From positions 1 through 30,594 of the IMG/VR virus record IMGVR_UViG_3300035204_001788: a stretch of 30,594 nt of DNA; one strand, given 5' to 3'. Below the pieces are notes generated by a model. That model saw only the letters and a list, made by a program, of their open reading frames with translations, was not told the DNA's origin and did not search any database. The position numbers and the translations under genes were made by a program. Shown piece after piece: positions 587-27,500 of this stretch. Positions within the stretch are counted from its first letter, which is position 1, and each line of letters opens with the position of its first letter. Origin of the DNA: a virus.

Positions 587-1804
587 ATGCCGAGAAATAG
601 AGTAATTTATCAAAGTGAAGCCCTTTATGTGGGCCCTACCCCATCGACTGGAGCCCAACTGGAGCACTCCATTAAACAATTACATAGGGTTCAATCCTGT
701 AATTATTCGTTTAATATTGATAGGACTGATGTAAATCAGTTCGGAGAACTAGCTGCTATCGACAGAATTGCCCTTGATACGCCGACTGTGGCTTTGGACT
801 TTTCTTATTTATTGGCTAACTTCCAAAACGAGACTAATCTGGGACTTGTCACGGACGGATCTGACACCTCGATTAAGAATCTTATCAACAAATCCGAAGA
901 CGATAAAAACTACTATATTCGTACTGCTGCGGAGGGTGTTGACGCCATTGGCGATTTGACGAAGGGGGCAAATTCTTCAACGATTGGTATCGGTAACGGA
1001 TTCATAACGTCTTACTCTTCTGAGGCGTCAGTGGGAGCTTTCCCAACCGCTACAGTAAATGTCGAAGGTCTCAATATGATCTTTGTCAATACTACTTCCG
1101 GAGATAACCCTGCGGTTGATCCTGCCAATGGCAGCAGAATTACGGATAATTCCTACGACTTTATCCTCCCAGACGCTTCTGGTAACGCTGGTACAGGCGA
1201 TCTCGCCTTTAGTACCTTGCGTCCGGGTGATATTACATTCCACTTCAAACAGAGAGACGCAGAGTCGATTGACCTTGGAACCGGAGTAGACGGTTCAGAA
1301 GCTGCGACTGCCTATGCGGCTCCGGGTGCTTATTTGGGAGATGGAACAAGCGAGGGTCACGGTAAGATTCAGAGCTACAACTTCTCTGTTGATCTACCCC
1401 GTGAAGCGATCATGAAATTAGGCTCAAGATTCGCATTCTCTCGTGAAATCACCTTCCCGATTACTGCGACATTGGGTATTGAAGCCCTTGTTTCCGACCT
1501 TCTTGAAGGGTCCTTATCGGATCTTATAAATTGTGATGACTCTTACGACATCACAGTTAATCTGTTGAGACCTACTAGTTGTTCAGGCTCTGGTTACAAC
1601 GACATCTTCGCTCAATACAAGATGAAGAATGCCAAAGTGAACTCTCAAGCCTTTAGTTCCGATATCGGAAGTAATAAAACTGTAAGTCTTGAGTTCTCGA
1701 CTCAGATTGGTGGACCTAACCAAGACAGCCAAGGATTGTTCTTGAGTGGTATCTCTAGCTCGAATTTGGCTCCGATGACGCAGGACTCAGCAGCTAGAAA
1801 CTAA
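587..1804 (+). CDS. Probable major tail tube protein (gpV-like position)
   Basis: A 405-aa, Gly/Ser/Asp-rich, mainly beta protein without signal peptide or membrane segment. It follows a leader with a ribosome binding site (AGGA) and is followed at once by a strong terminator, as expected for an abundant virion protein. Two motifs stand out: GFITSYSSEASVGAFPTATV (from about residue 138) and SYNFSVDLPREAIMKLGSRF (from about 262). Near the C-terminus is YKMKNAKVNSQAFSSDIG (about 345-362). The same three motifs recur in the products at 22752 and 23659 and in the N-terminus of the giant adhesin at 24511. Major tube status is inferred from position upstream of the chaperone-like and tape measure genes, the terminator and the beta-rich composition. 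Alternatives are a tail sheath-less decoration or baseplate ring protein. Confidence 0.65.
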   Translation: MPRNRVIYQSEALYVGPTPSTGAQLEHSIKQLHRVQSCNYSFNIDRTDVNQFGELAAIDRIALDTPTVALDFSYLLANFQNETNLGLVTDGSDTSIKNLINKSEDDKNYYIRTAAEGVDAIGDLTKGANSSTIGIGNGFITSYSSEASVGAFPTATVNVEGLNMIFVNTTSGDNPAVDPANGSRITDNSYDFILPDASGNAGTGDLAFSTLRPGDITFHFKQRDAESIDLGTGVDGSEAATAYAAPGAYLGDGTSEGHGKIQSYNFSVDLPREAIMKLGSRFAFSREITFPITATLGIEALVSDLLEGSLSDLINCDDSYDITVNLLRPTSCSGSGYNDIFAQYKMKNAKVNSQAFSSDIGSNKTVSLEFSTQIGGPNQDSQGLFLSGISSSNLAPMTQDSAARN

Positions 1805-1821
1805 GGAGTTAATTAAAATAT

Positions 1822-1852
1822 ACCCCTCAGCTTCGGCTGGGGGGTTTTTTTA
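1822..1852 (+). terminator. Rho-independent terminator after the tube gene
   Basis: A ten-pair stem ACCCCTCAGC / GCTGGGGGGT (one G-T pair) closes a UUCG tetraloop and is followed by a run of T residues (1845-1851). It lies 18 bases after the stop codon of the tube protein and would end most transcripts there, letting the tube protein be made in excess over the chaperone-like and tape measure proteins. Confidence 0.92.
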
Positions 1853-1886
1853 TTTAAATCTTTTTTTCGATAAAAAGAACATAGGG

Positions 1887-1911
1887 GTGTATAATAATGT
1901 TAGGTAAAAGG
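1887..1911 (+). promoter_or_regulatory. GTGTA(TAAT)...GGTAAAAGG element before the 1925 gene
   Basis: GTGTATAAT (1887-1895) contains a perfect TATAAT and is followed by AGGTAAAAGG (1902-1911). The same two-part element precedes the genes at 4360, 22668 (minus), 22752 and 23659. It lies just after a terminator, so a new transcript start here is plausible. No convincing TTGACA-like -35 is seen at the usual distance, so it may need a phage factor or may be recognised as an isolated -10. Confidence 0.5.
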
Positions 1912-1924
1912 TATTTCTAAGGAT

Positions 1925-2155
1925 ATGGAAGAAGGTAGAGACAATGCTCAAGAGTTCGTTCGTTTCCAAGTTCATAGGAAAATTACCAACCTTTATAAAC
2001 AATTTTTGTTTATTTTAGAGGACACAAAAACGAATAATGATGAAATTAGCGAGGAAGCATTTCAGAAAGCTAGAAAGCGAGTTCTTGATCATGGCAACGA
2101 CTCAATTAGAGAAATAGATGAGATGCTAGAAAAGTTTCATTTTCGATTAAAATAA
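1925..2155 (+). CDS. Small helical protein of unknown function between tube and tape measure genes
   Basis: A 76-aa, highly charged protein predicted to be almost all helix, with no membrane segment or recognised domain. AAGGA lies just before its ATG, closer than usual, while the GGTAAAAGG of the upstream element is 13 bases away and may also help ribosome loading. It is the first gene after the tube terminator and sits seven bases before the next gene, in the place where lambda-like phages encode tail assembly chaperones. Only position supports a role in tail assembly; it is not recognised from sequence. Confidence 0.6.
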   Translation: MEEGRDNAQEFVRFQVHRKITNLYKQFLFILEDTKTNNDEISEEAFQKARKRVLDHGNDSIREIDEMLEKFHFRLK

Positions 2156-2162
2156 TTTTTCT

Positions 2163-3203
2163 ATGAAAAGACTATATACATTTGATCTAGATGAGGAAGT
2201 CGAGTCACGGGTTCAAGAGACTAGTAAAAACGAAAACGGGGAAGACGTCACTACCACTAAAGTAGTAAAAGAAACAAAGCTCCGAACCCTTTTTATAAGG
2301 AAGCCGTACAGAAAGCTATATGATGATGCTGAGTTATTTTATGGCGTTATGATCTCTCAGGGCATCCAAGCTGGCTTGATTACTCGTCCATTATTGGCGA
2401 AAAGATACGAAAACGATGGGGGCGTATTAAACGAAAAAGAAAAAGGAGAATATGCAAAGCTGTATATGCAGTTATTTGAATATCAAAATGAGTTCTCCAG
2501 AATTCAACTAGCGAAAGACGAAGCAAAGACCCCGGAGGAAAAAGAGAATTTAGAGTCAGAACAGGAAAAAAATATTATTGAATTAGTGAGGATAAGAGAA
2601 AAGCTTCAAGACTACGAAGCTGCTCAACAAACAATTTTTGAACAGACAGCAGAAAACAGAGCAAGGGATAAGACTATTCTGTGGTGGACCCTGATGTTGT
2701 CTTACATAGAAGACGAAGACGGAAGTGAACGTCCATTTTTTGGGGCAGGGGAATTCGATGAGCGTTTGGAAGAATATGACAGAATGGAGACGTTGGAAGA
2801 TCCTTTCTTATCAGAAGTCACTAGAAAATTTGCTTATTATGTAAGCTTTTGGTACATGGGCAAAGTAACAGATGAAAGTGAATTCAAAGAGTTAGAAGCC
2901 TTCGATACTAGAACAGAAGAGGAAAAAGAAAAAGAGGCGAATTTAATTAAAGAGGTTATAGAAAGAGACGCAAAGATAGCATTAGATGCCCAAGATGAGA
3001 TATCAGATCTGGTCTTAAAAACGAGAGAGGAGCAAGAGAAGCTGGAAGAAGAGGATGCAAAAATAGAAGCCGAGGTTAAAAAAATCGACGAAGAAGGAGA
3101 AAGAATAAGGGCTGAAGCCATGGAAGGGCAGGAAGAATCTCCTCCTGAGGGTAATCAGGAGAGTACTGAAGCGAACGATTCTGAATCGAAAGAGGCAGGA
3201 TAA
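2163..3203 (+). CDS. Charged coiled-coil protein in the tail-assembly-chaperone position (copy A)
   Basis: A 346-aa acidic protein. Residues 1-50 are beta-like and contain a KxxKLRTLFIRKPYRKLYDD segment; residues about 55-245 form a helical domain with ETA-type helices (IFEQTAENRARDKT near 160-173, then WWTLMLSYIED); residues about 250-315 are a long Glu/Lys-rich coiled coil and the last 35 residues are disordered and acidic. No strong Shine-Dalgarno precedes the ATG, so translation may be coupled to the 76-aa gene seven bases upstream. A terminator follows at 3226. The next gene product, of nearly the same length, shows a similar helical layout. Tail assembly chaperone is inferred from position before the tape measure gene; no frameshift signal was found. 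Confidence 0.55.
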   Translation: MKRLYTFDLDEEVESRVQETSKNENGEDVTTTKVVKETKLRTLFIRKPYRKLYDDAELFYGVMISQGIQAGLITRPLLAKRYENDGGVLNEKEKGEYAKLYMQLFEYQNEFSRIQLAKDEAKTPEEKENLESEQEKNIIELVRIREKLQDYEAAQQTIFEQTAENRARDKTILWWTLMLSYIEDEDGSERPFFGAGEFDERLEEYDRMETLEDPFLSEVTRKFAYYVSFWYMGKVTDESEFKELEAFDTRTEEEKEKEANLIKEVIERDAKIALDAQDEISDLVLKTREEQEKLEEEDAKIEAEVKKIDEEGERIRAEAMEGQEESPPEGNQESTEANDSESKEAG

Positions 3204-3225
3204 TTGGCGAAACTACTAATAAAAT

Positions 3226-3252
3226 GCCCCGCTTCGGTGGGGCTTTTTTTTT
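3226..3252 (+). terminator. Rho-independent terminator between the two chaperone-position genes
   Basis: Stem GCCCCGC / GTGGGGC (3226-3232 and 3237-3243, one G-T pair) closes a UUCG loop, followed by nine T residues (3244-3252). It starts 22 bases after the stop of the 2163 gene and its T-tract ends only five bases before the ATG at 3258, so any transcript ended here excludes the downstream gene. Confidence 0.9.
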
Positions 3253-3257
3253 AAAAC

Positions 3258-4304: not shown

Positions 4305-4312
4305 TATTTTAG

Positions 4313-4335
4313 GTGTAATTACTCCTGAAGGTGCA
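4313..4335 (+). promoter_or_regulatory. GTGTAAT...AGGTGCAAGG element before the tape measure gene
   Basis: GTGTAAT (4313-4319) is followed after nine to ten bases by AAGGTGCAAGG, a variant of the GGTAAAAGG half seen elsewhere. A clean AGGAG (4342-4346) lies further downstream before the ATG pair at 4360 and 4363. The element suggests that the tape measure gene can be transcribed independently of the terminator-limited upstream genes. Confidence 0.42.
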
Positions 4336-4359
4336 AGGTATTAGGAGAAATTTAGAACT

Positions 4360-13036: not shown

Positions 13037-13915
13037 TTATTCAGCCTTTCCTTCTAATAACTTTATTCTTTTTTCGAGATAGCCCACTTTAGCGTCGAGG
13101 AATGATATCGCTTCGTTGAAAGCCATTTCTTTATTGCCTCCCCCTTCGCTCATCAAAGGAAGTTTAAGGTTCGGAGTGAAATCTCTTGTTATATGACAAA
13201 TTTCGTCGAATTTAGTTTCGCCAGCATAACTTGAAGATAAAAATAGTTCCCATTTCCGGATAGATACCTTGCCTTTGGCAACGCCTTTCGGTAACGGGTA
13301 GAGAAGCGTTGCGTAGGAATGGTCATCTTGTCTTTCGACTGATTTAATAGTCTTTTCTATCGTGGCTCTTTGTGACTTCTCTTGATATTCAGCTTTTATT
13401 TTTAAGTTGACTCCTTTTGCATCTGAAACAGTAAGAATTTCGGAGTCTGGTTGGGTTAAATATTTGCCTTTATTGACGACTTCTAATTTTTCCACCCCTC
13501 CTTCTTCGTTAATTTTGGTAACCACAAGGTGACATGGATCTGTTAAATTATCATTAACATTCACAGATAGTTCTCCGGGGAGAAACACATTATCCTTTAA
13601 GCAAAAACCAGACCCTTTATTTATTATGTCGATAAGTAATTTAAGTTCATATTCTTTATAGGTTATTTTAACCACGTCAGAACGAGTTAAATTACCTCCT
13701 ACATTTTCTTCGAGTCTAATACGAACGAGATCGTCACAGGTAAAATCTTTTATATAAAAAAATTCATTTGAGCTGGCTACAACGTAATGACCATGATCGT
13801 TTTCGAATTTTAAGTAACTTCCCGGCCTAACTGTTACCCAATCATTTTCAGATTCTCCAATTGCTCTATTGGTTCCCTTTATTATCGACGCTACGTAATC
13901 AAGTTGTTTTGACAT
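13037..13915 (-). CDS. J-distal structural protein with beta repeat and C-terminal coiled coil
   Basis: A 292-aa protein of unknown function, last gene of the minus-strand tail-tip block. The N-terminal part (about 20-90) is beta-rich; a KGSGF...LPGELSV segment (from about 103) and a VVNKGKYLTQPDSEILTVSD segment (from about 150) resemble the GSGYxxxP beta repeats in the neighbouring 13943 product. The last 30 residues (EAISFLDAKVGYLEKRIKLL) form a short coiled coil that could trimerise it. No signal peptide or membrane segment. No Shine-Dalgarno is evident before the ATG, 27 bases after the previous stop. Its stop lies four bases from the stop of the convergent tape measure gene. A tail-fibre or tail-tip accessory role is inferred from position. 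Confidence 0.6.
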   Translation of the reverse strand: MSKQLDYVASIIKGTNRAIGESENDWVTVRPGSYLKFENDHGHYVVASSNEFFYIKDFTCDDLVRIRLEENVGGNLTRSDVVKITYKEYELKLLIDIINKGSGFCLKDNVFLPGELSVNVNDNLTDPCHLVVTKINEEGGVEKLEVVNKGKYLTQPDSEILTVSDAKGVNLKIKAEYQEKSQRATIEKTIKSVERQDDHSYATLLYPLPKGVAKGKVSIRKWELFLSSSYAGETKFDEICHITRDFTPNLKLPLMSEGGGNKEMAFNEAISFLDAKVGYLEKRIKLLEGKAE

Positions 13916-13942: not shown

Positions 13943-14731
13943 TTATTTTTCTTGTTCCACAGGCGGATGTTCAAAATAGAAGCTTATTTTGCTAGTTACT
14001 TTTGCTCTAATTCCGTTTTCTGACTCAGGTTCTGTTACCGTTATCTTTGGAGGGATTGAATAACCGTGTCCGGGGTCTACAATTATTATATCTACTAATT
14101 CTCCATTATCAATTCTTGTTTGAACTATTGGCTTTGAGCCTCCCCCGTCCTCCTCTAAAGGGCTTGAAAAAAGGAGATTTGGTTCTTCAATATATCCAGA
14201 GCCTTTGTCGGTAATCTCCATGATTAAGACGTTTCCATATGGATTAAATTGGAAAGCTTTTTCCAAATCCATTTTCCAGAACCCCCATTTTTCAATAAAA
14301 AAAGGCAGATCTCTGTAGAAGTTTTTTTCTCTAATTAGAGTCTCTTTTTCTTCGAACCCTTGCTCTTCAAGACACCTTAAGAATCTATAATCCAAGTCTT
14401 TGAAGATGTCGTCTCTATATGCCATAAAAGACCCTATATATTCCTGTTTCCTTTGTTTGTGGGTTTTTTTGGGGGGCGTCTCGATATTGGGTTTATTAAG
14501 ATCCCCTTTCCCTTCGCTTAAAAAAGTACCTTTTAAAGGGTCGGGGTCGTGTTCTCTAATCGTTTCTTCATCTAAAACTTTCCACTGGGTTATTAAATTT
14601 GGATCTTCGTCTATTTCTGTTAGGATTTTGGATATGTTTTTTTGAACGTAATCTTTATCTTGCCCTTCTTTTAAATTTATCAATAAGCTAGACCCGTTAT
14701 TAAAGTTAACTGCTAAAGTTTGTATGCTCAT
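13943..14731 (-). CDS. J-distal structural protein with GSGY-type beta repeats
   Basis: A 262-aa protein of unknown function following the gpJ homologue. The start chosen is the ATG at 14731, which overlaps the J stop codon (ATGA, four bases) and has AGGAG seven bases upstream; an upstream in-frame ATG at 14800 would overlap J by 73 bases and lacks support. Residues about 105-165 form a helical region (YRDDIFKDLDYRFLRCLEEQG). The C-terminal part has ITDKGSGYIEEPNLLFSS and IIVDPGHGYSIPPKITVTEP, two GxGYxxPPxI-type beta repeats that are common in structural proteins of aquatic phages. It may be a tail-tip or fibre attachment protein; this is inference from location. Confidence 0.65.
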   Translation of the reverse strand: MSIQTLAVNFNNGSSLLINLKEGQDKDYVQKNISKILTEIDEDPNLITQWKVLDEETIREHDPDPLKGTFLSEGKGDLNKPNIETPPKKTHKQRKQEYIGSFMAYRDDIFKDLDYRFLRCLEEQGFEEKETLIREKNFYRDLPFFIEKWGFWKMDLEKAFQFNPYGNVLIMEITDKGSGYIEEPNLLFSSPLEEDGGGSKPIVQTRIDNGELVDIIIVDPGHGYSIPPKITVTEPESENGIRAKVTSKISFYFEHPPVEQEK

Positions 14732-17700
14732 TCTTGTTCTCCTGACATTACCCCTATGAAAATTTGTTGCCCTTTGTCTATTCTTTCTCCATTTAAACAA
14801 TAGAAAGCTTGTCTAGCGTAACTATAATAATCCCAAAGAGAAACTTGTATCTTAATGGCGAAACCATCTCTAGCTTGAGCCACTCCCACTCCGGGGTCCG
14901 CTTGTATGGAGCAAACCCATCCCTCGCCCGGTGTTTGACCCCTGCCTTCTAGCCATCTACTTGTATAGAGCTGATCATGCCGTTCCTTTAACACATGGTC
15001 TAGTTTTGAAAGATATTTTTGATACTCAGGATCGGTGGTAAGATCGAAATATTTTACACCTACAGTAGCAAAGGGATTATTATTATTTGTACTGCCAGTC
15101 CACATTATCGGAGGGATAGTTTGGACGTAATATCTATTAGTAGGCATCATCCCTTCTGTAAATTTGAAGTACAATACCCAAGCAGATTCTATGCATTTGT
15201 TCCAATAAGCTTCGTGTCCCCAATATTCACGACGTCCCCCTTTCCTCCACCATGGTACATCAGGAGTAATAGAACCTCGTCCGTTTTTAACTCGCTGCTG
15301 ATTAAAAATCGTATAGTTGTCCTTGCATCTTTCCTGCCAACCCTCTCTGTTACCAAAAATCCTTGGGTGGGTAGAGGATCTATAAGCCGACGTTTGCCTG
15401 TGGCTAACAAGGAACGAAGTGAAATGTGGTGGATTGTGGTTTGAATAATTCGCCCCCATCCAAGGAGTTTCGTAATGTGGCAGCGCACAAGTAATACCAT
15501 ATCCAAAAAACTCTCTATGAACAGGGCCTTTTGTTTCCCATTGGCTGCTTTTTGGGTCGTCCCATGTGGTATGTTGTTTCGTTTTTACTAGCTCTAATCC
15601 ATTTTGAGCCCTGACATTGGTAATCGTTCCTCCCCATCCCGACCATTCGCCAGCTATGAATGCCGTATATCCCCCGCCTCCTAACATATCAATGATAGCA
15701 CTTCGCATTTCTATTACTTGTGTGTTTGATATTTGATCGAAGAGAAGATCTAATACGTATGATTCTCCTTTTTCGGCTCTTATTCTTTCGTCATAGGCAT
15801 CGGCGTAAGCTACCGCTATATGCGCTTCTGAACCAATAAAGCCAGCGATAATTGAAATTTTATTTGGAGCTTGAGAACTATTAAGAAAAATTACTGTTTC
15901 AATACCATTAGCCTCTCTCCATGTTTCACTTTTGATGTTTGCATTTAGGTTATCGTTTTGGTCTCTGGTCTCGAATGGCTCTTTACTGATTAATAGTAAT
16001 CCACCTTTTACAGTTAAATCTTGCGTCGCCTTTTCTGGCGAATGGTCGGTGTATGCGATGTACACGTTTCCAGATGCGTCCATGTATTGATCAGAACAAA
16101 AACCTGATCCCCCTTGTCCTTTTGCTGTTTGACAAGCCTCTAAATCCTCAGGCGGCGTCATCTCAGTTCGCCCGATCCTAGGGTTGTTCAATTCTAAAAT
16201 ATCATACCCATAAGGGTTCGACACAGAGGATGCAGACATGGTTCCTGCTGAGCTGTCTCCGTTTGAATCAATTGCTTCTACTACAATATCGTAGTCTCTT
16301 AAATAAACACGGCTTCCAGTAAGCGCCTTTATGTTTTTATTAATATCAAATTCAAAATTGAACTCCCCCTGACTCAATTGGCTCAAACTACCAAGATACT
16401 CGCCCGTGCCGCTTGTCGGATCAGTACTAGAACTATCGTAACCTTGATATGTTAATATGATGTTTTGGCTGGGAACGTTAGAGTTAGAAACTTCACGAAT
16501 TGTAACTTTATAATCGTACCTGATTTTAATATCTGATTTTCCTGCCACTCTTATACCCCAAGAAACAGAAGGTTCCGAAAGGTCGTGAGTTTTTTCCCCT
16601 CTGACTCCGGGGTCGGTCTCGCCGTCGGTAATGGTAGTTGTTCCGACGGCCAAGGTTAGAGAATGGATATGTGTATCGTAAATTGGCTTAATCGCATCAA
16701 TAACAATTGAATTATAAGCGTAAGAATCAGAAGCTAGCCCGATTCTATTAAAAGAATAAACTCTAAAATGGTAAGTACCGTCTGAAGAGGGAATGTATCC
16801 TTCTCCAGACAAATCCATCGGCCCACTATGGATGTGGATTAAATATTTAGAATCCGGTGGAGAATTTAAAGCTGCTTCTTCCGAGGTCCTATCAGAGTCT
16901 GTTTCTTTAAAGTCCGCCCCATTCCAAGCTCCTTTTTTAATGTAAACATAATAACCTTCAACATTCGTTGTGCTCCCCGGCCCAATGACCCACGTTAGTT
17001 CCTTTGTGTTTTGCGTAATCGTCCTTGCGGTTGGCGATACGCTATTTGGGGCATATACCGTTGGGCTTGGTTCAGCTTGCTCAAAATCGATAGTCCCATC
17101 GAGTCTTTGAAATTTTTCATCGTTGTACTCTATACAAGTGACGTTGTATTCATTTTCTTTTTCTGAGACAGTCATTACTTTCCATTCAGTAGAGACATTA
17201 AACTTTTCAGAAAAAGCAGTTTTAGTAGATCCGGTTGGCTCAATACTCCAAACAAGTCTATTATTTAATTGATAACCAGATTCAAGAAATCCATTTGGTA
17301 AAGCGATCTCAGTTTTACCATTAGCGTTTACAGAAACGTGACTTCCATTAAAATCAATTGACTGTAATTGCGACCTCCTAATTTCTTCACTAAGGGCAGA
17401 TGCTGTTATATTAGTGATAGAAGGATCGTATTGATAAGAAGGGATGAGCAATGTGAATCTGTAGGTGTCAGTAGATGATGTTAACAGATCTATTTTCGAG
17501 TCTAGCGTAACTGTGCATGAGCCTCCTGCCGGAGGAACACTTCCTGATTCAGAGGTGTCACTAAAAGACATATCTCCAGAAGGGGAAACGTTATTAATCA
17601 AAGATAGTCTTCCTCCGTACCTTTTCGTGTTGCGAAACTGGTCACTAACAGAAATTATGTCTCCGGGCTTAAGAATGTTAGCTTCCATTCCAGTGATGAA

Positions 17701-19401
17701 GGATAAAGATTCTTGATCCATTTGCTCAGTGAGGAGCATCCATTGTCCGTATCTTATCGCTTGGCCTCTACTAGTTATTCCTACTCCGGCGATTTCAATT
17801 TCCCTAATTCCATACTTCCTTATTCCCTCTATGTCTTCTACGTATTCTACTTCGCTATCAAAATCGTTGACCTTGTCTCTATACCTGATTATTGCTACCG
17901 TCCTTCTTGCTTTCGTGGCGGAAGACTGGTAAACAAAATCTCCATTCTTAACATTCGAATTGTTAAATTGATAGACTGGTTTCTTTTGTCTGTCTTGGCT
18001 TAAGAATATGTTTCCTCCTTGAAAATAGGTAATTGCCCTAAATACGCTCGCTAAATCTTGGATGACTTTATGTGCGGCATCTCTGTTTTTAATTACTATA
18101 TTACATGTAAATCTAGGCTCAAGCCCTCCGTATCCATCATCAACAAGTTGATCGCAATATTTTGCTATTTCGTAGAGGGTCCACTTATCGAGGTAATCAG
18201 GATGCACATATTGCCCTAGTCCATATCTTCTGTTTGTTACAAGATCGTAGAAGATCCAAGCAGGGTTATCGGTCCAAAATTTATTTTCGTTCCATTCTCC
18301 ATTCCAATAAGTATGACCACCATTCAAATAGGTTTTTGTAATCGGGTCATAGTCAACTGGTATTTTTACTCTTAATCCCCTAACGTCATATGTTCTTTTG
18401 GGGATTCTATCCCCAAAATATTCAGCAAGGAACCTGTGTTCTACCACTGCTGTATTAGGGTAAGTAAATTTATTCCCATAAATTTCATAGAATGAATCAA
18501 CATATGTCTGATTCATTACTGTTGTAGTTATTGAGTCTTCCGTGTCTCTATAAATCCTTATTTCATACCCTAAGAACCCATCTGTGTTCGAAAAATCTTG
18601 ACCGAATCTTACAGTGGTTTGGTGTACATAGGGGTGATTGAGGTAGCCTTTTATTGTTTTTTCCGCTCCTGTGGTGAATAGTGAAGCACCACGACGGGCA
18701 TCTTCTGCTTTTGTAAATATAGGGCGGTATTGTATAGTGTAATCTACAGTCGTATCGGATTTGTCCCCGTATTCTGTTGAGCTTTGTTTTTCTACGGCTA
18801 ATAAACTAACTACTTTTATTGATACAGCGACTCCTTTGCAGTCCTTATTCTTTATCCTATATGTTTTAGCGAAACCCTCCCCGCCTCCCCTTAGTCTTTC
18901 GCCGACTGACCTGTGTATGGTCAATGGTGTATCTATTACGCCCTCAACAGTTCCGTCTGGAGATCCTTTAGATTGCTGTATGCCAATTTGTTGAAAATTA
19001 AATTGATCGTGTTTATTAATAACTGGAAGGTCATTATAATAAACAGAAGGGAGCCATTTGTATGTTCTACTACTGGTTTCGCTAGGCGTTATTGTTGAGT
19101 TAGATTCGAAATCCACCGAGTCCCACCCTATTTGACCTCTTGATTCTTCCACGGTTCCTGTAAATTTTCCTACGAACTCCCCTTCTACCAAACCGTTAAT
19201 TTCTCCTTCGGAGATAACGTCGGTAATCTTAACTAAAGTGGATGATATAGCTCTATCCAGAGCATTGCCGTCACCGTCAAGTTGACCTATTACTCCTTCG
19301 TCTGGTTCTTCAGGGATACGATTCCATACGAGAGCTGATGAAATTCCATAGCTTTTTCTGAGCCTCGTGTTGATTCCGTGCTGGCTAAATATTTTAATCA
19401 T
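14728..19401 (-). CDS. J: Central tail tip / host specificity protein, gpJ family
   Basis: A 1557-aa homologue of lambda gpJ, which forms the tail-tip hub and extends to bind the host receptor. Residues 25-75 carry the typical N-terminal ISSTLVKITDVISEGEINGL segment; residues about 380-500 match the Phage-tail_3 region (LVTNRRYGLGQYV, then SVFRAITYFQGGNIFLSQDR); about 500-610 contain the GQAIRYGQWMLLTEQ and KPGDIISVSDQ hub motifs; about 780-905 is a fibronectin type III domain (YYVYIKKG...YHFRVYSFNRIGLAS). Residues about 1080-1557 are not recognised and the last 300 are rich in Trp and Tyr. Lambda gpJ is 1132 aa, so the extra length is at the distal, receptor-facing end. It is coupled to the gpI homologue nine bases upstream and overlaps the next gene by four bases. 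Confidence 0.93.
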   Translation of the reverse strand: MIKIFSQHGINTRLRKSYGISSALVWNRIPEEPDEGVIGQLDGDGNALDRAISSTLVKITDVISEGEINGLVEGEFVGKFTGTVEESRGQIGWDSVDFESNSTITPSETSSRTYKWLPSVYYNDLPVINKHDQFNFQQIGIQQSKGSPDGTVEGVIDTPLTIHRSVGERLRGGGEGFAKTYRIKNKDCKGVAVSIKVVSLLAVEKQSSTEYGDKSDTTVDYTIQYRPIFTKAEDARRGASLFTTGAEKTIKGYLNHPYVHQTTVRFGQDFSNTDGFLGYEIRIYRDTEDSITTTVMNQTYVDSFYEIYGNKFTYPNTAVVEHRFLAEYFGDRIPKRTYDVRGLRVKIPVDYDPITKTYLNGGHTYWNGEWNENKFWTDNPAWIFYDLVTNRRYGLGQYVHPDYLDKWTLYEIAKYCDQLVDDGYGGLEPRFTCNIVIKNRDAAHKVIQDLASVFRAITYFQGGNIFLSQDRQKKPVYQFNNSNVKNGDFVYQSSATKARRTVAIIRYRDKVNDFDSEVEYVEDIEGIRKYGIREIEIAGVGITSRGQAIRYGQWMLLTEQMDQESLSFITGMEANILKPGDIISVSDQFRNTKRYGGRLSLINNVSPSGDMSFSDTSESGSVPPAGGSCTVTLDSKIDLLTSSTDTYRFTLLIPSYQYDPSITNITASALSEEIRRSQLQSIDFNGSHVSVNANGKTEIALPNGFLESGYQLNNRLVWSIEPTGSTKTAFSEKFNVSTEWKVMTVSEKENEYNVTCIEYNDEKFQRLDGTIDFEQAEPSPTVYAPNSVSPTARTITQNTKELTWVIGPGSTTNVEGYYVYIKKGAWNGADFKETDSDRTSEEAALNSPPDSKYLIHIHSGPMDLSGEGYIPSSDGTYHFRVYSFNRIGLASDSYAYNSIVIDAIKPIYDTHIHSLTLAVGTTTITDGETDPGVRGEKTHDLSEPSVSWGIRVAGKSDIKIRYDYKVTIREVSNSNVPSQNIILTYQGYDSSSTDPTSGTGEYLGSLSQLSQGEFNFEFDINKNIKALTGSRVYLRDYDIVVEAIDSNGDSSAGTMSASSVSNPYGYDILELNNPRIGRTEMTPPEDLEACQTAKGQGGSGFCSDQYMDASGNVYIAYTDHSPEKATQDLTVKGGLLLISKEPFETRDQNDNLNANIKSETWREANGIETVIFLNSSQAPNKISIIAGFIGSEAHIAVAYADAYDERIRAEKGESYVLDLLFDQISNTQVIEMRSAIIDMLGGGGYTAFIAGEWSGWGGTITNVRAQNGLELVKTKQHTTWDDPKSSQWETKGPVHREFFGYGITCALPHYETPWMGANYSNHNPPHFTSFLVSHRQTSAYRSSTHPRIFGNREGWQERCKDNYTIFNQQRVKNGRGSITPDVPWWRKGGRREYWGHEAYWNKCIESAWVLYFKFTEGMMPTNRYYVQTIPPIMWTGSTNNNNPFATVGVKYFDLTTDPEYQKYLSKLDHVLKERHDQLYTSRWLEGRGQTPGEGWVCSIQADPGVGVAQARDGFAIKIQVSLWDYYSYARQAFYCLNGERIDKGQQIFIGVMSGEQE

Positions 19402-19410: not shown

Positions 19411-20235
19411 TCAACCTATCCATCCCCCATTATCTGGATCAGCTACCTGTGGTTCTCTAGTCACTGTTTCGTAGCTGCCTACTGCGATTCCTCCGGCTAT
19501 TATGGCTATACCCATCACGAACATACCATCACCATCGGTTGCTGTGTGGTGGCCTGCTAATAAATCTGCCATCGTCAATGGTTCTCCTCCTGACTCTGCA
19601 TCTATGTTAAAAGTATCATAATCTGCCTGAATAACATGGCTACCAACGAGTAGACGTCCGTAAATAATAGGGCAGGGGCTTCCTTCTTTATTTGTATTTT
19701 CGTAATCAGAGAACAGATAAGACGTAGCCCCTCTTGTCTGAATATTTCTCTGTTCAGCTATTTCAGGTGGCTTTGCCAAGAGATTTATAACTCCTGAGGC
19801 CAATAACCCTATTCCTGCCATTAACAACGCAGCTCCTATTGCTCCCCCTATCATAGCGCCTGCTGCTGCTGTGATGATACCAGCCGTTATCGCAGCAACC
19901 CCCATAGAACCTTCTAATACGGGTACTATATCAATTGTTTTCAAGTTGCCTCTTTCGATTACTAATTCTGATTCTTTAATTTTTTTTATTAATTTTTCTG
20001 AAGTTTCTATGGTCTTTTCGATTGGGTTTATTAATTCTTCAGAAAGGCGGACTTCTTTTTCATTTATTAAGATCTCGTATTTTTGGTTGAGAGAATTTTC
20101 GGCAAGGTAATCAAAGAGTTTCCGTCCAGACATTATTTCGATAGCGTGAACGGCTTCGCTGACGCTTTTCACGCTCAGGTCCCAACGACTACCAACTTTT
20201 TCCCCTAATTCTCCATGTAGTTTTATTTCTACCAT
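19411..20235 (-). CDS. I: Tail assembly protein, gpI family
   Basis: A 274-aa homologue of lambda gpI. The N-terminus (VEIKLHGELGEKVGSRWDLS, residues 2-21) is the beta-grasp start typical of the family; residues about 100-155 are a Gly/Ala-rich hydrophobic region (GAMIGGAIGAALLMAGIGLL) with the look of one or two membrane segments; the C-terminal part contains PCPIIYGRLLVGSHVIQADY, also typical. Lambda gpI is needed for tail-tip assembly and is thought to leave or be degraded. It starts six bases after the gpK homologue and has no clear Shine-Dalgarno, so translation is probably coupled. Confidence 0.88.
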   Translation of the reverse strand: MVEIKLHGELGEKVGSRWDLSVKSVSEAVHAIEIMSGRKLFDYLAENSLNQKYEILINEKEVRLSEELINPIEKTIETSEKLIKKIKESELVIERGNLKTIDIVPVLEGSMGVAAITAGIITAAAGAMIGGAIGAALLMAGIGLLASGVINLLAKPPEIAEQRNIQTRGATSYLFSDYENTNKEGSPCPIIYGRLLVGSHVIQADYDTFNIDAESGGEPLTMADLLAGHHTATDGDGMFVMGIAIIAGGIAVGSYETVTREPQVADPDNGGWIG

Positions 20236-20241: not shown

Positions 20242-20997
20242 TCATTTTATTTTTCTAAAAACACACACTGTATCTTTTAGGAAAGCTTTTCCATAATTTC
20301 TTATTTGGGATTTAGCATCTCTTGGCTGATAAAGAACTTTGCCGTTACCTAAATATATCAAAACATGGGCTACGAAGTCATGTTCCTTGGAGTACAAAAC
20401 AATTCCATCGTTTCTTTCTAAATCTTCTACGGAATTGACCTCAATTTTTTCAAACCCGATTGATTTGGCGAATGCGAGTGCTTCCGAGGTAACAGCTTCG
20501 CCCTTCCGAACTGGTTTAAAATTTTCATGGATAGTTTTCCAATTAAATTTTTTAGGAATATCGTACCCCACTTCTTTTTTATAAAATTCCCTAAAGATGG
20601 TTATGCAATTATTACCATCTTTTTTAAAACTTCTGCCTGTATATTCTTCTTGTGGGGTTTCGGGGGAATATTCCAAAAATTTGTCTTTCCCAACGCAATA
20701 TAATAGATAGTTAATATTGTGATTTTTACTGTTCGTTTTATCAATTGGTGAAAAATTTTCTGAGTCGTCGGGGTGAGAGTGATACACAGCCAAGATTTTG
20801 CCTATTTCTGAAGACTTTAAATAATCACGAGGAGAAAGGGAAAATCCCATACTTTTTGAGGTCGATTGGTTCTTATATTGGTGGACTTCAACAAGACTGG
20901 TGCTCTTGTTTTTGACTATTAAGCCGCAACATTCATTTGGCATCTCTATTAAAGAATGCTCTTTGATCTTACTTTTTATTTCTTTTGTAAGAGTCAT
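20242..20997 (-). CDS. K: Tail tip JAMM peptidase + NlpC/P60 protein, gpK family
   Basis: A 251-aa two-domain homologue of lambda gpK. The N-terminal Mov34/JAMM domain has E22 and an exact HxHx7SxxD zinc site: H73, H75, S83 and D86. The C-terminal NlpC/P60 domain has its probable nucleophile C131 (in GNNCITIF) and H211 (in VAHVLIYLGNGK). The residue before the Cys is Asn rather than the more usual Asp. These domains probably process tail-tip proteins and/or open peptidoglycan during infection. Its ATG shares one base with the gpL homologue stop (TAATG), so translation is coupled. Confidence 0.9.
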   Translation of the reverse strand: MTLTKEIKSKIKEHSLIEMPNECCGLIVKNKSTSLVEVHQYKNQSTSKSMGFSLSPRDYLKSSEIGKILAVYHSHPDDSENFSPIDKTNSKNHNINYLLYCVGKDKFLEYSPETPQEEYTGRSFKKDGNNCITIFREFYKKEVGYDIPKKFNWKTIHENFKPVRKGEAVTSEALAFAKSIGFEKIEVNSVEDLERNDGIVLYSKEHDFVAHVLIYLGNGKVLYQPRDAKSQIRNYGKAFLKDTVCVFRKIK

Positions 20998-22082
20998 TAG
21001 GTTAACCTACCTAATCCGGGGAACCCACCAAAAGGTAAGGCTCCACCTTTGTTATGATTACAAATTTCTGTTTCCCATCTCAATTTACATCCTCTAACGG
21101 TTTTAGAGCATTGGTCAGGAATCCAATAGTTTGTATTTGTTACGTCTATTCCCTCTGGGCCAGTAACTGATCTGACAAAATAGTAGCGAATTCCACCTTT
21201 TTCTATGTATACAAATTCCTTTGCTCGATAGGGTTTGTTTATGCTAAATTCTCCTGCGTTACTAAGGCTGCCCTGAAGGAGATCGACAAATTTTTCATCT
21301 AAAACATTAGCTTTTGGCGGGGCAGATCCGGGTAGAGACGCTCCTTTATGTGCTTCTTCTTCGGAAGGTGGGTAAGAATGTTTGATTTTAGGTGCTCCAC
21401 TGCTGTATTCATAGCAACATCCTTCTCCCCTATATTCAAAAGAACATCTTCGGCTCCACATTCTCCTTTTAGGCAAAAAAAGATTTTCAAAATCAAGTAC
21501 AGTGCTTAATTCCCATTGCATTTCTCCTTTGCTCTCTCGTGCTAACCTACTTATGTAATAAACATCCCTTGGGAATTCAGCGTACTCGTTCGATTCAAAC
21601 CCATGTGGCTGTGTGTCGTCTGTAAAATTAGAACTGTCTAGAAATTTAGCCAGAGTACGTATCCTAGTAACTGTTGCTCCACTTGGGTCTCCTAGTTTTT
21701 TTATTTGAGCCCTAAAAGCGGAGAAAGCAGGAAGAGAATCATCAGTAGAAGTAATTCCCAATTTGGGTTTCGGAAGAGCCCCTTTTGAGGACACTTCGAA
21801 GCCTTCAGCGTGACACGGACAAGCGAGATAACAATGCCCTTGCCACTGAATAGTACTACTAAAAAGATTGACTGAATTATGAATTCTAAAAATACGAAGT
21901 CCTTCAGGGGTATTTGGGCTAATGAGGTTTTTGGCGAATAAAATATCCGTAAAATCGAACTCGAACATTGTGATTACCGCAGTCGGATCTAGCGACATCA
22001 TCTCCTCATTCCTTTTGGGGATAGCTTCTTGAGTTAGAGAAGTGCTGGCTTTAGAAAGGCCTTTTAGGGGAGGAGTGCTCAT
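20997..22082 (-). CDS. L: Minor tail protein, gpL family, predicted Fe-S protein
   Basis: A 361-aa homologue of lambda gpL, which seals the tail-tip hub. FTDILFAKN and IQWQGHCYLACPCHAEGF lie in the N-terminal beta domain, and a FLPKRRMWSRRCSFEYRGEGC segment follows at about 203-222. C213 and C222 are nine residues apart and C325 and C332 (CSKTVRGC) seven apart, the same spacing as the cysteines known to hold a [4Fe-4S] cluster in the lambda family, as I recall it. Extra cysteines are at 223 and about 341. It ends with FGGFPGLGRL, typical of the family. It starts four bases after the gpM homologue stop. Lambda gpL is 232 aa, so this one is longer, with insertions in the N-terminal half and between the cysteine pairs. 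Confidence 0.9.
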   Translation of the reverse strand: MSTPPLKGLSKASTSLTQEAIPKRNEEMMSLDPTAVITMFEFDFTDILFAKNLISPNTPEGLRIFRIHNSVNLFSSTIQWQGHCYLACPCHAEGFEVSSKGALPKPKLGITSTDDSLPAFSAFRAQIKKLGDPSGATVTRIRTLAKFLDSSNFTDDTQPHGFESNEYAEFPRDVYYISRLARESKGEMQWELSTVLDFENLFLPKRRMWSRRCSFEYRGEGCCYEYSSGAPKIKHSYPPSEEEAHKGASLPGSAPPKANVLDEKFVDLLQGSLSNAGEFSINKPYRAKEFVYIEKGGIRYYFVRSVTGPEGIDVTNTNYWIPDQCSKTVRGCKLRWETEICNHNKGGALPFGGFPGLGRLT

Positions 22083-22086: not shown

Positions 22087-22668
22087 CTATGTTGGTACTT
22101 CTTCGAAAGTAGCTGTTATATCGTAATTATCAAAAAAGTTATAATTGCTAGCCCAAGCCTTACAAACAAAAAGCTTTTGTTTCGAATAGGGATCAGGAGG
22201 CGTAAAAAGAAATTGATCCGTACCCTGTCTAGCTTCAAGAAAATGGAGAATCGCCCTTGTTTGATTTGTACCCCTAAGCCCAAAGCTTAAGGATAAATTG
22301 AGTAGGATATTATTGATTCCGTCCTGTGTTCTTTGTTCGTATCCATCCCCAAAAACTATAGATCTCATCCTTGGCGTTTGATTAGCGTTAACAGGGTAGG
22401 ATGGCGTCCAGATAAAATGAGGGTAATATTCGCTATTGTTATCAGTGGTAAAACCAGCCCAATTTGTTGAATCGTTAAACGGAGCAGTGCTAGATGTATG
22501 ATCTCTTTTTGAGTAGTAATACATGAATTCCGTAGCAGAAGGCTTCGCTACAGCGGACAAATTTGGGTAAATAGTAGAGTCTGAACCCGCTACTACCTTA
22601 GTAACGTCATCCTGTTTGTAGCTTACTGGGCTGAAAGGCCACTCGGTTATATCGTAAACGTTAGCCAT
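22087..22668 (-). CDS. M: Minor tail protein, gpM family
   Basis: A 193-aa homologue of lambda gpM, a tail-tip ring protein that joins tube and hub. The family signature is clear from about residue 100: MRSIVFGDGYEQRTQDGINN, then FLEARQGTDQFLFTPPDPYS, then VCKAW and a C-terminal TATFEEVP. The first 95 residues are longer than in lambda (gpM 109 aa) and show no recognised domain. It is the first gene of the minus-strand block; the ATG follows AAAGGATT and the two-part GTGTAA/GGTAAAAGG element 26 bases upstream. Confidence 0.9.
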   Translation of the reverse strand: MANVYDITEWPFSPVSYKQDDVTKVVAGSDSTIYPNLSAVAKPSATEFMYYYSKRDHTSSTAPFNDSTNWAGFTTDNNSEYYPHFIWTPSYPVNANQTPRMRSIVFGDGYEQRTQDGINNILLNLSLSFGLRGTNQTRAILHFLEARQGTDQFLFTPPDPYSKQKLFVCKAWASNYNFFDNYDITATFEEVPT

Positions 22669-22751
22669 AATCCTTTTACCTCTTTATTTTACACGAAATT
22701 TGTACATTTTTATAAAAAAAATTGGTGTAATTTGTAATGGAAAAAGGCGTT
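22669..22751. promoter_or_regulatory. Divergent control region with back-to-back GTGTAA elements
   Basis: Minus strand: GTGTAAAAT followed by GAGGTAAAAGG (22694 down to 22672) sits 26 bases before the gpM ATG. Plus strand: GTGTAAT (22725-22731) followed by GGAAAAAGG (22739-22747) sits 27 bases before the ATG at 22752. The two are arms of an imperfect inverted repeat, TTACACGAAATT (22689-22700) and AATTGGTGTAA (22720-22730), around an A/T-rich centre. This is most simply two divergent promoters with their translation starts. No consensus -35 is visible for either. Confidence 0.55.
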
Positions 22752-23627
22752 ATGTTTGACTTTAACAAATCTCCACGGCTACATCGGGGTAATCAGCATT
22801 TTTTTATAAATGAAGAGGAGGTTAGTGGGGTCCAGCAAGTTTCTGCTAATTTTTCTCTACCTATAGCCCAGTTGGAATACATGGGAATGAGATCTTCGCC
22901 TATAGAGTATGCTCCCGACGGAGGATTCAAGGGCGAAGTTAGCTTGGGTGCGAACCTCATTTCTAAAGACTTTTTTATAGACTTAACTGGTTATTCTGGG
23001 TTCAACGGTTATATTTTAAAAAACAAGTCAAATTCTACTGAAAATTTTAGTTTTACTTCTGGGTATTTAACCTCTTATTCCCATAAAGCCAGCATAGGCA
23101 AAGTTCCCACGGTTGATGCGACAGTATCGGTATTAGGTAAAATGGGGCGAATTCCGACTGGGGAATCGCCTAAAGTCACAACAGATTTAGAAAATATACA
23201 AAATTATTATCCAAAATACGGTTCAAATATAATTGCCCCCGGATCTATAGAGATAGAAGGAGAAGGTTTCGAAGATTTTAAAAGTAATCGAATTAACCAA
23301 TATTCCATAGAAATTAGCACAGAAAGAAATCCAATATACGTACTAGGACACCGTTACCCTACTCAGGTGGAATTGAATTATCCTGTCGAAGTTACTTGTA
23401 AATTTAGTTTAGAAAGCAATGATATTGTTCCATATACCAATTCAGATTACCCATGCGCCCCTAAAAACGGGGACCTTACAATCAAACTGAGAGACAAAGA
23501 CAGCAATGCGATTGCTTATCAATATCACTTTACTAATTTAATATTACATTCCCAATCTTTCTCGACTTCTGTTGGTGGAAATCAAACTCTGGATTTATCA
23601 TATAAAACTTACATAAATAGACCATAA
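22752..23627 (+). CDS. Tube-like structural protein, paralogue of the 587 product
   Basis: Start chosen at ATG 22752 (MFDFNKSPRLHRG), because AAAAAGG ends four bases upstream; an in-frame ATG at 22737 would place that purine run inside the gene and has no ribosome binding site. The 291-aa product is beta-rich with no membrane segment. It repeats the motifs of the probable tube protein: GYLTSYSHKASIGKVPTVDA (about 103), QYSIEISTERNPIYVLGHRY (about 182) and YQYHFTNLILHSQSFSTSVG (about 256). The last strand closely matches AQYKMKNAKVNSQAFSSDIG of the 587 product. It likely forms a ring or sleeve of the tail, perhaps at the tip, since it is followed by another paralogue and by the giant adhesin with the same fold. 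Confidence 0.6.
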   Translation: MFDFNKSPRLHRGNQHFFINEEEVSGVQQVSANFSLPIAQLEYMGMRSSPIEYAPDGGFKGEVSLGANLISKDFFIDLTGYSGFNGYILKNKSNSTENFSFTSGYLTSYSHKASIGKVPTVDATVSVLGKMGRIPTGESPKVTTDLENIQNYYPKYGSNIIAPGSIEIEGEGFEDFKSNRINQYSIEISTERNPIYVLGHRYPTQVELNYPVEVTCKFSLESNDIVPYTNSDYPCAPKNGDLTIKLRDKDSNAIAYQYHFTNLILHSQSFSTSVGGNQTLDLSYKTYINRP

Positions 23628-23656: not shown

Positions 23657-23658
23657 GA

Positions 23659-24507
23659 ATGGTTTATTTCGATAATTGTGATGTTGCGGTAAACGGTAGC
23701 GGCGTAATGGCTACTTCCGCCAATATCCAATCTCAAAACTATCTTGACCCCGCTTATATCCTAGAAATGAGGGGGGAAATGAGCAAACCCGCCGCCGATT
23801 CCATAAGAAATGTCTTGAATATAGACTATTATGTTGAAGTAGATAACGAGCCAAATATAGAGATTATAAATTCGATAAAAGCTTTCAGGCAGGATGACCA
23901 TGTCGCAAAACCATTTCCGGTCGAAGTTGCGGGTATAACAGGGAATTTTTATCTTCAAAGTTACAGTTTTGCAGTAGAGCCGAATAAAGTGACTCACGCA
24001 AGAGCTAGCTTCGTTTGTTATGATCAACTCACTGGGAATGGGGATTTATCAACGAAGAAAAAAGGAGATGAAGAAATTGATTATAATAAGTCAAATTCAT
24101 TAGCACATGGGTGGACCACTTACGTAGCGTCAAGTGGGACGCATATTGAAGTCCCGACTTATAAAATGGATTACGGTTTCAATGCTGAGTACAAGCCAAT
24201 TTATACGATAGGAAGAAAATTCCCTAAACAAGTACAAATGATAAAGGCTAATGAAGAAATTAAATTCGTGAGGGATAAGTATAAGCATATCGTCTTCTCT
24301 GGAGAAAAAGCTGAGGAGGCGTTGCCTAATTTCGAAAACGACAGTGAAGCTGATTTATTTGAAATAGAAGCATTATGCGGTTCAGAAGAATCGCAGACTA
24401 ATCAACTTAAGATTTTGGTAAGTGGAGCCGTGGTAACAAGCACCGCAGTTATAGCGGGGGTCGGTAAACAGGTGAGAACCGCAGTATCAGTGAACAGAAA
24501 TTATTAG
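23659..24507 (+). CDS. Tube-like structural protein, second downstream paralogue
   Basis: A 282-aa protein with the same two motifs as the probable tube protein: FYLQSYSFAVEPNKVTHARA (about 97) and DYGFNAEYKPIYTIGRKFPK (about 170). The 70-residue spacing is close to that of its neighbours (78 at 22752, 65 in the adhesin). Residues about 110-160 carry a charged loop (KKKGDEEIDYNKS) and the C-terminus (LKILVSGAVVTSTAVIAGVG) matches the final strand position. No signal peptide; the C-terminal hydrophobic strand is too short and interrupted for a convincing membrane helix. It sits three bases before the adhesin gene, suggesting co-translation and a shared structure. A ring or adaptor protein at the tail tip is inferred. 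Confidence 0.58.
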   Translation: MVYFDNCDVAVNGSGVMATSANIQSQNYLDPAYILEMRGEMSKPAADSIRNVLNIDYYVEVDNEPNIEIINSIKAFRQDDHVAKPFPVEVAGITGNFYLQSYSFAVEPNKVTHARASFVCYDQLTGNGDLSTKKKGDEEIDYNKSNSLAHGWTTYVASSGTHIEVPTYKMDYGFNAEYKPIYTIGRKFPKQVQMIKANEEIKFVRDKYKHIVFSGEKAEEALPNFENDSEADLFEIEALCGSEESQTNQLKILVSGAVVTSTAVIAGVGKQVRTAVSVNRNY

Positions 24508-24510
24508 AGT

Positions 24511-27500
24511 ATGTATTTTACTTATAAAAATTGTAAGATACAGATAAACGAAGAATCATTTTTCGTATCAGATGCTAATGTCTCCTTTCAGAGCAGTAAT
24601 GATCCAAAATATATCGCTCATCAGCGTCATTCAAATAGCTATTCCCCAACTGACGGAATAGGTGGTCAATTATCTGTTTCTTATTACCTTACAGGGAAAG
24701 ACCCTTTAAAAGAATTTGTAAGTTCCGAAACGGGGGTTATATCTGGCGACTTTGGAGGACTCACTTTTCGTAGCGGCTATCTTACGTCTTATAATTTTCA
24801 GGCTGTCCCCATCAGCCCCGTAAAAATAGACGCAGAGATCGTTTTTTTTGATGAGTTGCAGGGGTCTTTTGAACCCACGTACCAAGAAGCGGGCAATGTA
24901 GATTTTTTAAATTTTACTGATGCAACCATATCTAGTTTATCAGGCATTGGAGACATAGATAGTATTGCTTCCATTCAATATGGGTTCTCTTCTGAGATAA
25001 GGCCAGTGATAGAAGCGGGCAATTCAGTGCCCAGTAGAATTTACTTTGGACAAAAAGAGGTTCAAGTAGGAGTCACTATAGATACCCTTAGTGGAAATTT
25101 ATCTTTCTATGGAAACGATGCGGCTATATCTCTGAATTTAAAAGACAACACCAATAGAATTGTTGATTCCTATAGTGTAATCGGAATTCTTAATCAGAAA
25201 CAAATTGGCGTCGATTCGAATTCTCCTTTAAGCACTCAACTTTCAATCAGGGAAAATCGACTTGGAGAGAACCCTACGCTAACAAGCTTCAGCCCTTCTA
25301 CGTTTAAAGAAGGGGAAACGGTTACGGTGTATGGAACCGAGTTTAATACGGCCTCGCAAGTTAGCTTTGGCAATGTTTCAACAAGAGATTTAAACATTGA
25401 AAGCGACAACAAATTAACTGTTAAAGTTCCTTACGGTCCACCCCCAACTGATTATGTTTACGTGACTAATGCTAGGGGTATGGCGCAGTCATTAGAGACT
25501 TATTCTTTAAACTTCGACACGATGACGCTTACGTCATTTGGCCCAAAGAAAGGACGTTTAGCGTCGGATGACCACCCCGGCACTGAAGTAACAATAACAG
25601 GAACTAATTTAAGTAGAATATCTTACATTCATTTCGGCGCTGGCCAAGGAGTCGACCGATTTAGACTAATTGGTCAACCCTATGGGACCAAGATCATAAC
25701 AGAAGTTCCGAGGAATGCTTTCCGAGACAGGATTACTGTCAGGTCTAATGATAAAAATCAGACAGTATACACCTCTGATTTTTTTACTCCTTATCCGAGG
25801 GTAGATAAATTTTTTCCTTCTGGCGATAGCCGAGCAGGGGACCTTATCGATGTTTACGGGGCTTCGTTCTACGGGGCTACAGGAGTTATAGTCGGAAACA
25901 GCCCTGTAGCCTTTAACGTGCTTTCTCCAAGCGGTTTACAATTTACCGTTGGCGATGGTGTGTGCAAAGGCTTTATAACGGTTCAAGGCAGAGATCAAAC
26001 TTCAGGAACTAGCTTAGGCTCTTTTGGTCAAGAAGTAGCTATCACAGGAGTATCCCCCGAAAGAGGACCTACTGGAGCTTACATTCGTGTTTCGGGGAAA
26101 AACTTTCACTCTAGCTTGTTATACAGTCATTCTGCTACTGAATTTGGAGTAAGGATAAACAATGGGACAGGAAAATTTGTTAGAGTAGATGAAAATCTAC
26201 TAACAGGAAATGTCCCAGATAATATTTCTATTTTTGGTTCCGGCTCGATCCATCTTTTGAAACCTGATGGGGCGTCTGAGTATAATTCGGGGGCTAATTT
26301 TTATGTAACTCCTCCAGTGGGAAACATTGTTTCCGTTGCTCCTCACACTGGTTTTTCTGGAGATTTTGTATCGATAGTCGGTAGAGGATGGAGTGAGAGT
26401 ACGCTTACGGGGCTGAGGCTTGTTCCTGTTGAGCACGGCGAAACAAAAATAGACGGAAGCCACGTTGGCGTCGGGTACAATATTAGCAATTATACTTTAA
26501 ATTATAATCAGACTACACAGGACTCCGTTATAAGTTTTAATGCCTCTGTTCGCCCCGGAGCTTATAGATATGAAATTGACTCAATAGAAAAAACAGTTTC
26601 TGGGTTATATACTACGGCTACTGCCTCGAATAGAGGGCTTCGTATCATTGGGGATATTGGGGATATCCCTGACTCTACGGATCTGGACCTTACCTTATCT
26701 CCACCGAGTGGCGTACATAAACAAACCATAACAATTACTGGTACAAATATATATAAGGAGCATTCTAGAGTTTATTTCAATGATCAATTAGTTCCAAGAA
26801 CATTCATGTTAGACGCTTGGGAGTCTGAAGCGACGAACAAATTAAAATTCATGGTTCCCGATGAGTTCATGATTGATCCGAACTTGTACCAACATAATGC
26901 AAGCGGGATAGTTCAATACGCTGTTAAAGTTAGAAATGAAGGTTACGCTAGTTTTAATACTGGTTATTATACAGCATATGATTCATTTGAATTAATAGGA
27001 AAGCCTTCGATTACTGGGTTTTCACCCACCTCTGGTAAGTTCGGTGCTACCATAAATGTTACTGGGCAAAATTTTATAAATGTAACAGGCGTGTCTGTAG
27101 GTGGGGCGGCGGTTTCTTCGGGAGTCTTTACTTCTGGGGATGGATATAATTACTTGTCATTTGCGATAAACAAAAGTTTAAACACAGATTTCATAAAGAT
27201 AGAGGCGACGGGCGGTACTGTTTATTCAAACCAAATTCTAAGAACTATTGGCGTTGATCCTTATATTAGCGGTTTCCGCCCAGTTTCCGGAAAGATAAAT
27301 TCTTACGTTACGATTAGCGGTTCGAGACTCAATCTTGCGAAAGAGATTCATTTATCAGGAGCCAACGGTACAAGAACAGATCTGGTAAGTGACAGACAGG
27401 GAGGGGTCGAAAGAGCTTGGGCAAGCAACGGGTCCTCCGGAATTACTTTTAGAATTCCATCCGACGCAAAGGATGGAGAAATCGAAATAGCTTTCGATGG

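Follow-up and report, generated by a model that had tools for sequence, protein, structure and literature searches.

Four tail tube paralogues, one joined to a giant adhesin, in the tail module of an apparently uncultured siphovirus group

Few phages with long non-contractile tails have a known mode of side-fibre attachment. The locus analysed here, a virus record of 30,594 nt taken at its full length (the window), encodes four proteins that look like tail tube proteins, the last of them running without interruption into a giant adhesin. This raises the questions of whether the four are truly related and of what the additional copies do in the virion. The initial annotation proposed that a tube protein was duplicated to form tip or decoration rings and that one copy became the anchor of the fibre. 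The reading preferred here is a refinement of this: the three additional copies, T2, T3 and T4, are probably extra tube rings at the distal tip of the tail, and T4 would root a giant side fibre of the TIG/collagen type.

The tail module of the window

The window carries a siphovirus tail module that is whole but for the 3' end of its last gene (Table 1). On the plus strand, a putative terminator is followed by the major tail tube protein TTP1, two putative chaperone genes and the tape measure gene. The minus strand contains two conserved genes of unknown function and then the gpJ-, gpI-, gpK-, gpL- and gpM-like genes. The plus strand resumes divergently from M with T2, T3 and a single open reading frame that starts with T4 and leaves the window. 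A lambda-like tail tip set M-L-K-I-J is present, with M, L and J recognised by PHROG families and K and I by their position. The gpK-like product gives a JAB-type match to a desampylase model, under the cut-off of that model. Two contigs from other metagenomes (L004 and L009) show the same junctions as the window with 86-99% protein identity, and their shared gene order rules out an assembly artefact. The coordinates first given for the four tube-like products are correct, except that T2 may begin at the in-frame ATG at 22737.

Table 1. Features of the tail module in the window
Feature	Coordinates	Strand	Evidence or context
Tail terminator candidate	2-460	+	separate gene upstream of TTP1
TTP1, major tail tube protein, 405 aa, two tandem tube domains	587-1804	+	between putative tail terminator and putative chaperone/tape-measure genes
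Tape measure protein, 2890 aa	4360-13032	+	size, position, homology to tape measures of relatives
gpJ-like central fibre/hub	14728-19401	-	phrog_31 central tail fiber J, 4.2e-133
gpI-like tail assembly protein	19411-20235	-	between K and J; position kept in relatives
gpK-like tail assembly protein	20242-20997	-	between L and I
gpL-like minor tail protein	20997-22082	-	phrog_18, 1.6e-44
gpM-like minor tail protein, divergent neighbour of T2	22087-22668	-	phrog_14, 2.3e-26
T2, tube paralogue beside M	22737-23627 (alternative start 22752)	+	hhalign to TTP1
T3, tube paralogue	23659-24507	+	hhalign to T2 and T4; own clade
T4, tube-fold anchor, residues ~1-250 of the giant adhesin	24511-25260	+	AlphaFold2 (AF2), Foldseek
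Adhesin stalk, open at the window end	25261-30594	+	Pfam, own TIG profile

Several further observations concern the neighbouring genes. The two genes between the tape measure and J (13037-13915 and 13943-14800, minus strand) are conserved across relatives and encode GSGY..P-like repeats; family searches with their products, including Pfam, gave no match. K is one gene in the window and two adjoining homologous genes in many relatives (e.g. L032:553-2207). A short module, perhaps a carbohydrate-binding unit, is common to M at its N-terminus and L at its C-terminus (hhalign probability 74, E 2.8e-5). The J-like proteins of L206:3-4478 and L207:104-5185 (minus strand) start with a stretch that, read by eye, is Hint/intein-like (GCFVAGTKIYTPFGYKNIEDIKIGD).

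The tape measure of the window is homologous to those of relatives, which reach 6037 aa (L030/L031, G003:72847-90960) and 6429 aa (L034/L035, G004:22482-41771). If tail length scales as usual, these proteins would specify tails that rival or exceed the tail of P74-26, which is the longest known tail described, at nearly 1 micrometre (PMC10034513).

Homology and fold of the tube-like proteins

The case for one common fold had been built on two motifs in the same order, and both motifs are confirmed in all four proteins once relaxed forms are admitted. TTP1 (GFITSYS at 138), T2 (GYLTSYS at 109) and T4 (GYLTSYN at 89) have the first motif, [GN][FY][LI]xSY[SN], in its strict form, which arises in no more than 0.12% of shuffled versions of these proteins; T3 has a relaxed version only (YLQSYS at 98). 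The second motif is strict in two proteins, and its relaxed form, Yx[FI]...[LAI]G, occurs in all four. The C-terminal pattern QYxxxNxxxxSQxFSxxxG is found in TTP1 (343) and T2 (262) exactly as described.

Profiles were built from IMG/VR with 53 homologues of TTP1 and 15-20 each for T2, T3 and T4, and were compared by hhalign. The comparison unites the four proteins in one family, with TTP1 and T4 joined only through T2. The E-values are 5.6e-15 for TTP1-T2, 1.5e-11 for T2-T3, 5.8e-11 for T2-T4 and 3.6e-20 for T3-T4; TTP1-T3 is marginal (2.4e-4) and the direct TTP1-T4 comparison is not significant (E 0.003, probability 10%). Small profiles of 4-5 sequences each give 4e-11 for TTP1-T2, 7e-8 for T3-T4 and 1e-5 for T2-T4. 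Tail-gene pairs from seven control families have E-values of at least 0.07, with the exceptions of M-L (2.8e-5) and G-GT (0.0026), and these controls rule out a chance or low-complexity similarity. By profile, then, TTP1, T2, T3 and T4 share common ancestry. Searches of the four proteins against Pfam, PHROGs, NCBIfam and PDB sequences gave no usable match.

When neighbouring pairs are compared half by half, N-terminal halves match N-terminal halves and C-terminal halves match C-terminal halves. TTP1 also contains an internal repeat (N versus C half, E 3.1e-5), a tandem-domain signal that is weak by sequence in T2-T4. Because the halves of TTP1 are alike and the corresponding halves match between proteins, TTP1 and, by homology, each of the others would be a tandem pair of tube domains. 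The first motif would therefore mark the end of domain 1 and the second the start of domain 2.

AlphaFold2 monomer models were obtained for TTP1 (pLDDT 74.2, pTM 0.76) and for T4 plus its first TIG domain, from an alignment of T4 and T3 rows (pLDDT 82.7, pTM 0.74). The strand order is alike in both halves of the two models. In Foldseek searches against the PDB, TTP1 matches the tube proteins of SH-Ab15497, DT57C, T5 (pb6) and P74-26 with E-values from 4e-11 to 2e-9. The best match of T4 is to the tail tip of T5, chain 7qg9_G with 298 residues (E 7.9e-9), followed by the tail-tip counterpart of DT57C and then by tube proteins, over a range of 8e-9 to 1e-5; a chain of HFTV1 matches more weakly. 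The chain 7qg9_G is taken by exclusion to be T5 p140, the only protein that fits a two-tube-domain chain of this length, since pb6 has 464 residues and is too long. With TM-scores of about 0.5, the models make the class of fold clear but not its details. The models support a tail-tube fold for TTP1 and T4, and this modelled pair from the four regions matches two-domain trimeric tail-tube proteins. The single-domain gpV-type unit first suggested for comparison is replaced by the two-domain T5/P74-26 type, as indicated by Foldseek and by the TTP1 half repeat. The TIG domain of T4 lies C-terminal of the second tube domain, which is the position of the outward Ig-like domain of pb6.

These matches bear on where T2-T4 are placed. 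Tube-like folds are also found in neck proteins, as the neck matches of phage 812 to the TTP1 model illustrate, and neck fibres occur in some phages. T2-T4 might accordingly form neck or terminator-side rings, with the adhesin as a collar or whisker fibre. This is hardly likely, given that a terminator candidate already lies upstream of TTP1, that the cassette goes together with the M-L-K-I-J genes rather than with head-neck genes, and that the top structural match of T4 is a tail-tip chain.

The adhesin, its anchor and their relatives

The last tube copy is tied to a giant adhesin, as the initial annotation had stated, by gene fusion in the window and by gene adjacency in dozens of relatives. 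The fused form occurs in the window lineage and few others, whereas most relatives encode the anchor separately. The fused reading frame of the window lineage has at least 2778 aa (extent seen in L004). Its stalk contains about nine TIG domains, a LamG domain (~1572-1721) and collagen-like Gxy runs (Pfam TIG 1.6e-26, Laminin_G_3 3e-13, complemented by an own TIG profile; collagen match in the L004 adhesin 4.8e-23).

In most relatives T4 has about 290-370 aa, comprises the tube fold and one TIG domain, and is directly followed by the giant TIG adhesin gene. The giant gene encodes 1,119-3,676 aa, or 553-570 plus about 1,800, and its TIG string typically begins near the N-terminus. The lengths of T4 form a series of 290 aa (without TIG), 359 (one TIG), 420, 505, 625, at least 891 and at least 2778 (window lineage). 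This passage from a bare anchor to an anchor with one TIG domain and to a giant fusion illustrates the way in which such a fibre can evolve. In the split relatives the stop codon of T4 is followed by the ATG of the adhesin after 0-16 nt (L039 has a one-base overlap), and the adhesin frame relative to T4 is +0, +1 or +2. The variable frame and the stop-ATG spacing indicate separate, translationally coupled genes, and they rule out a programmed frameshift at this junction.

T4 was found on more than 50 metagenomic contigs, most of them with a T2-T3-T4 block divergent from M-L-K-I-J. The order T2-T3-T4 is kept in 44 of 55 T4 rows, in which one contig is counted twice and many are close relatives, and all except two of these 44 have M as the divergent neighbour. 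The block is divergent from M on about 40 contigs, and a giant TIG gene comes next wherever the contig extends far enough. Among 50 TTP1-bearing records, T3 or T4 was seen in 19, many of the records being fragments, so that absences mean little. In a nearly identical set of 50, all with TTP1, a strong T2-like second copy is present in 32. Some relatives depart from the common order. In L070, L077, L078, L079 and L204, T4 occurs but T2 and T3 are missing, and those contigs that are long enough lack a giant gene after T4; L209 has a T2-like copy only; L206-L208 have T2 at M and a T3-T4 pair away from M, near the tape measure gene.

A single heteromeric ring of T2, T3 and T4 (1:1:1), with one giant fibre per virion, would suit the uninterrupted run of three similarly long genes on about 43 contigs and the need for three two-domain subunits per ring. 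It is nevertheless quite unlikely, as the relatives with T4 only and with T2 only imply that each protein can act alone.

In the tree, TTP1 and T3 are single clades (T3 with 16 members, 100/97) and T4 is one clade apart from the L206/L208 pair. T3 and T4 group together (100/99), T2 and TTP1 fall on one side of a 100/99 branch, and T2 is nearest to TTP1. The tree thus indicates four ancient orthologous groups, with T3 and T4 as sisters. Of the proposed duplication, the common ancestry is retained, while the copies are ancient; a recent duplication in this phage is ruled out by clades that span the whole group.

A further possibility is that T4 (perhaps also T3) is a minor tube subunit scattered over the length of the shaft, with adhesins projecting from all of the tail. 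SPP1 (gp17.1 with FN3) and the 936 phages (MTP-TpeX) do so with extended tube proteins, which decorate a minority of their subunits, and L154, L120 and L122 carry a second, longer tube gene beside TTP1. This arrangement is unlikely here: T3 and T4 have diverged strongly from TTP1 and make up a clade of their own, which makes copolymerisation at the TTP1 interface doubtful, and their genes are grouped with the tip genes, away from TTP1.

In the three relatives just named, the two tandem tube genes (L154:4838-7802, L120:1007-4028 and L122:4121-7014) encode ~390-450 aa and ~530-575 aa, and the longer product has a C-terminal extension without a Pfam match.

The TTP1 family comprises at least 159 loci in IMG/VR. 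Searches with TTP1, T2 and a divergent TTP1 by tblastn against 50,697 phage records gave no match, and the phage group appears uncultured. The MAG contigs matched by TTP1 belong to unrelated bacterial groups, which looks like binning noise, and host assignment failed.

Proposed tip architecture and known systems

In the preferred arrangement, with extra tube rings at the distal tip, the tube would be of the T5/P74-26 type, with two tube domains per subunit and three subunits per six-fold-like ring. T2 would most likely form a ring between the trimeric tube and the hexamer of M and link the two, the role of p140 in T5; frequent and adjoining M, it is the natural p140 counterpart. T3 and T4 would most likely form additional rings at the same place. 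The C-terminus of T4 would then leave the ring outward, where the T5 tube protein bears its Ig-like decoration, and continue into the TIG string, the lectin-like domain and segments of collagen type that presumably trimerise, as runs of this kind in the distal adhesin suggest. The adhesin would thereby be a side fibre rooted in a tube ring that needs no separate collar. There would be three adhesin chains on the T4 ring (three T4 copies if it is homotrimeric), and these chains may bind the host surface. In split relatives, the adhesin would dock on the single TIG domain of T4.

Some results weigh against this reading. The direct TTP1-T4 match lacks significance and the TM-scores stay near 0.5. 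In L206-L208 the tip position is not proven, since T3-T4 lie away from M, and the relatives with T4 but without T2, T3 and the giant adhesin mean that T4 need not serve a giant fibre. The extension to the whole uncultured group is evenly balanced: its members would have up to three extra tip rings, the outermost paralogue being continuous, covalently or by TIG-TIG docking, with an adhesin of 1,100-3,700 aa. The fibre would then start from a ring of the DNA conduit, without a collar protein.

For a large uncultured group the cassette offers a testable answer, in which a tube ring was duplicated and a fibre grew from it. It also points to the likely host-attachment proteins of a group without match in the cultured-phage records searched.

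The view that no described tail uses the tube fold in this way was too strong, since T5 p140, SPP1 and the 936 phages are precedents. Tube paralogues at the tip and adhesive extensions of tube proteins are already known, and the present design enlarges that of T5 rather than being wholly new. A dedicated paralogue as the covalent root of a giant adhesin, with a lambda-like tip and three paralogues, was not found in the open-licence literature searched. In T5, p140 forms a trimeric ring with the last tube ring on one side and the hexameric distal tail protein on the other, and three side fibres are held by a dodecameric p132 collar around p140; the authors infer that p140 arose by duplication of pb6 and state that phages outside the T5 family, lambdoids especially, must attach side fibres differently (PMC10038345). 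TTMP of DT57C is a tube-paralogue tip ring like p140, with an LtfC collar, and gp54 of phage T4 is cited as another tube paralogue at the tip.

The T4 product resembles p140 and TTMP as a two-domain tube paralogue from a separate gene encoded with tail-tip genes, and p140 is its best structural match. It differs in that p140 is undecorated and its fibre sits on the p132 collar, whereas T4 bears TIG domains and, in the window lineage, the whole fibre; the remaining tip is lambda-like, and there are three paralogues instead of one. No p132 homologue came to notice. T4 is thus not classed as a p140, and T2 may be the equivalent.

With SPP1 gp17.1-FN3 and 936 MTP-TpeX, T4 shares adhesive Ig/CBM domains fused C-terminally to the tube fold. 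These adhesive extensions are carried by the shaft tube protein (PMC8718954, PMC6669499), in subunits made by frameshift and with ~100-300 aa added, whereas in T4 about 2,500 aa or more are appended to a dedicated paralogue, at a junction without frameshift.

Three further systems are comparable in part. The HFTV1 connector also has two homologous tube domains in a trimeric pseudo-hexamer between tube and hub; the three fibres of HFTV1 are borne by the baseplate hub rather than by the connector. Evolved Dit proteins are tube-fold rings with carbohydrate-binding domains, but have a single tube domain, form hexamers and carry an internal insertion instead of a C-terminal giant stalk. Rhodobacter phage RcTitan gp17 (737 aa) is likewise a long protein with a tube-fold match in the viral library; it differs in that its gene, assigned to gp17 from the length of the product, occupies the place of the shaft tube protein in the genome.
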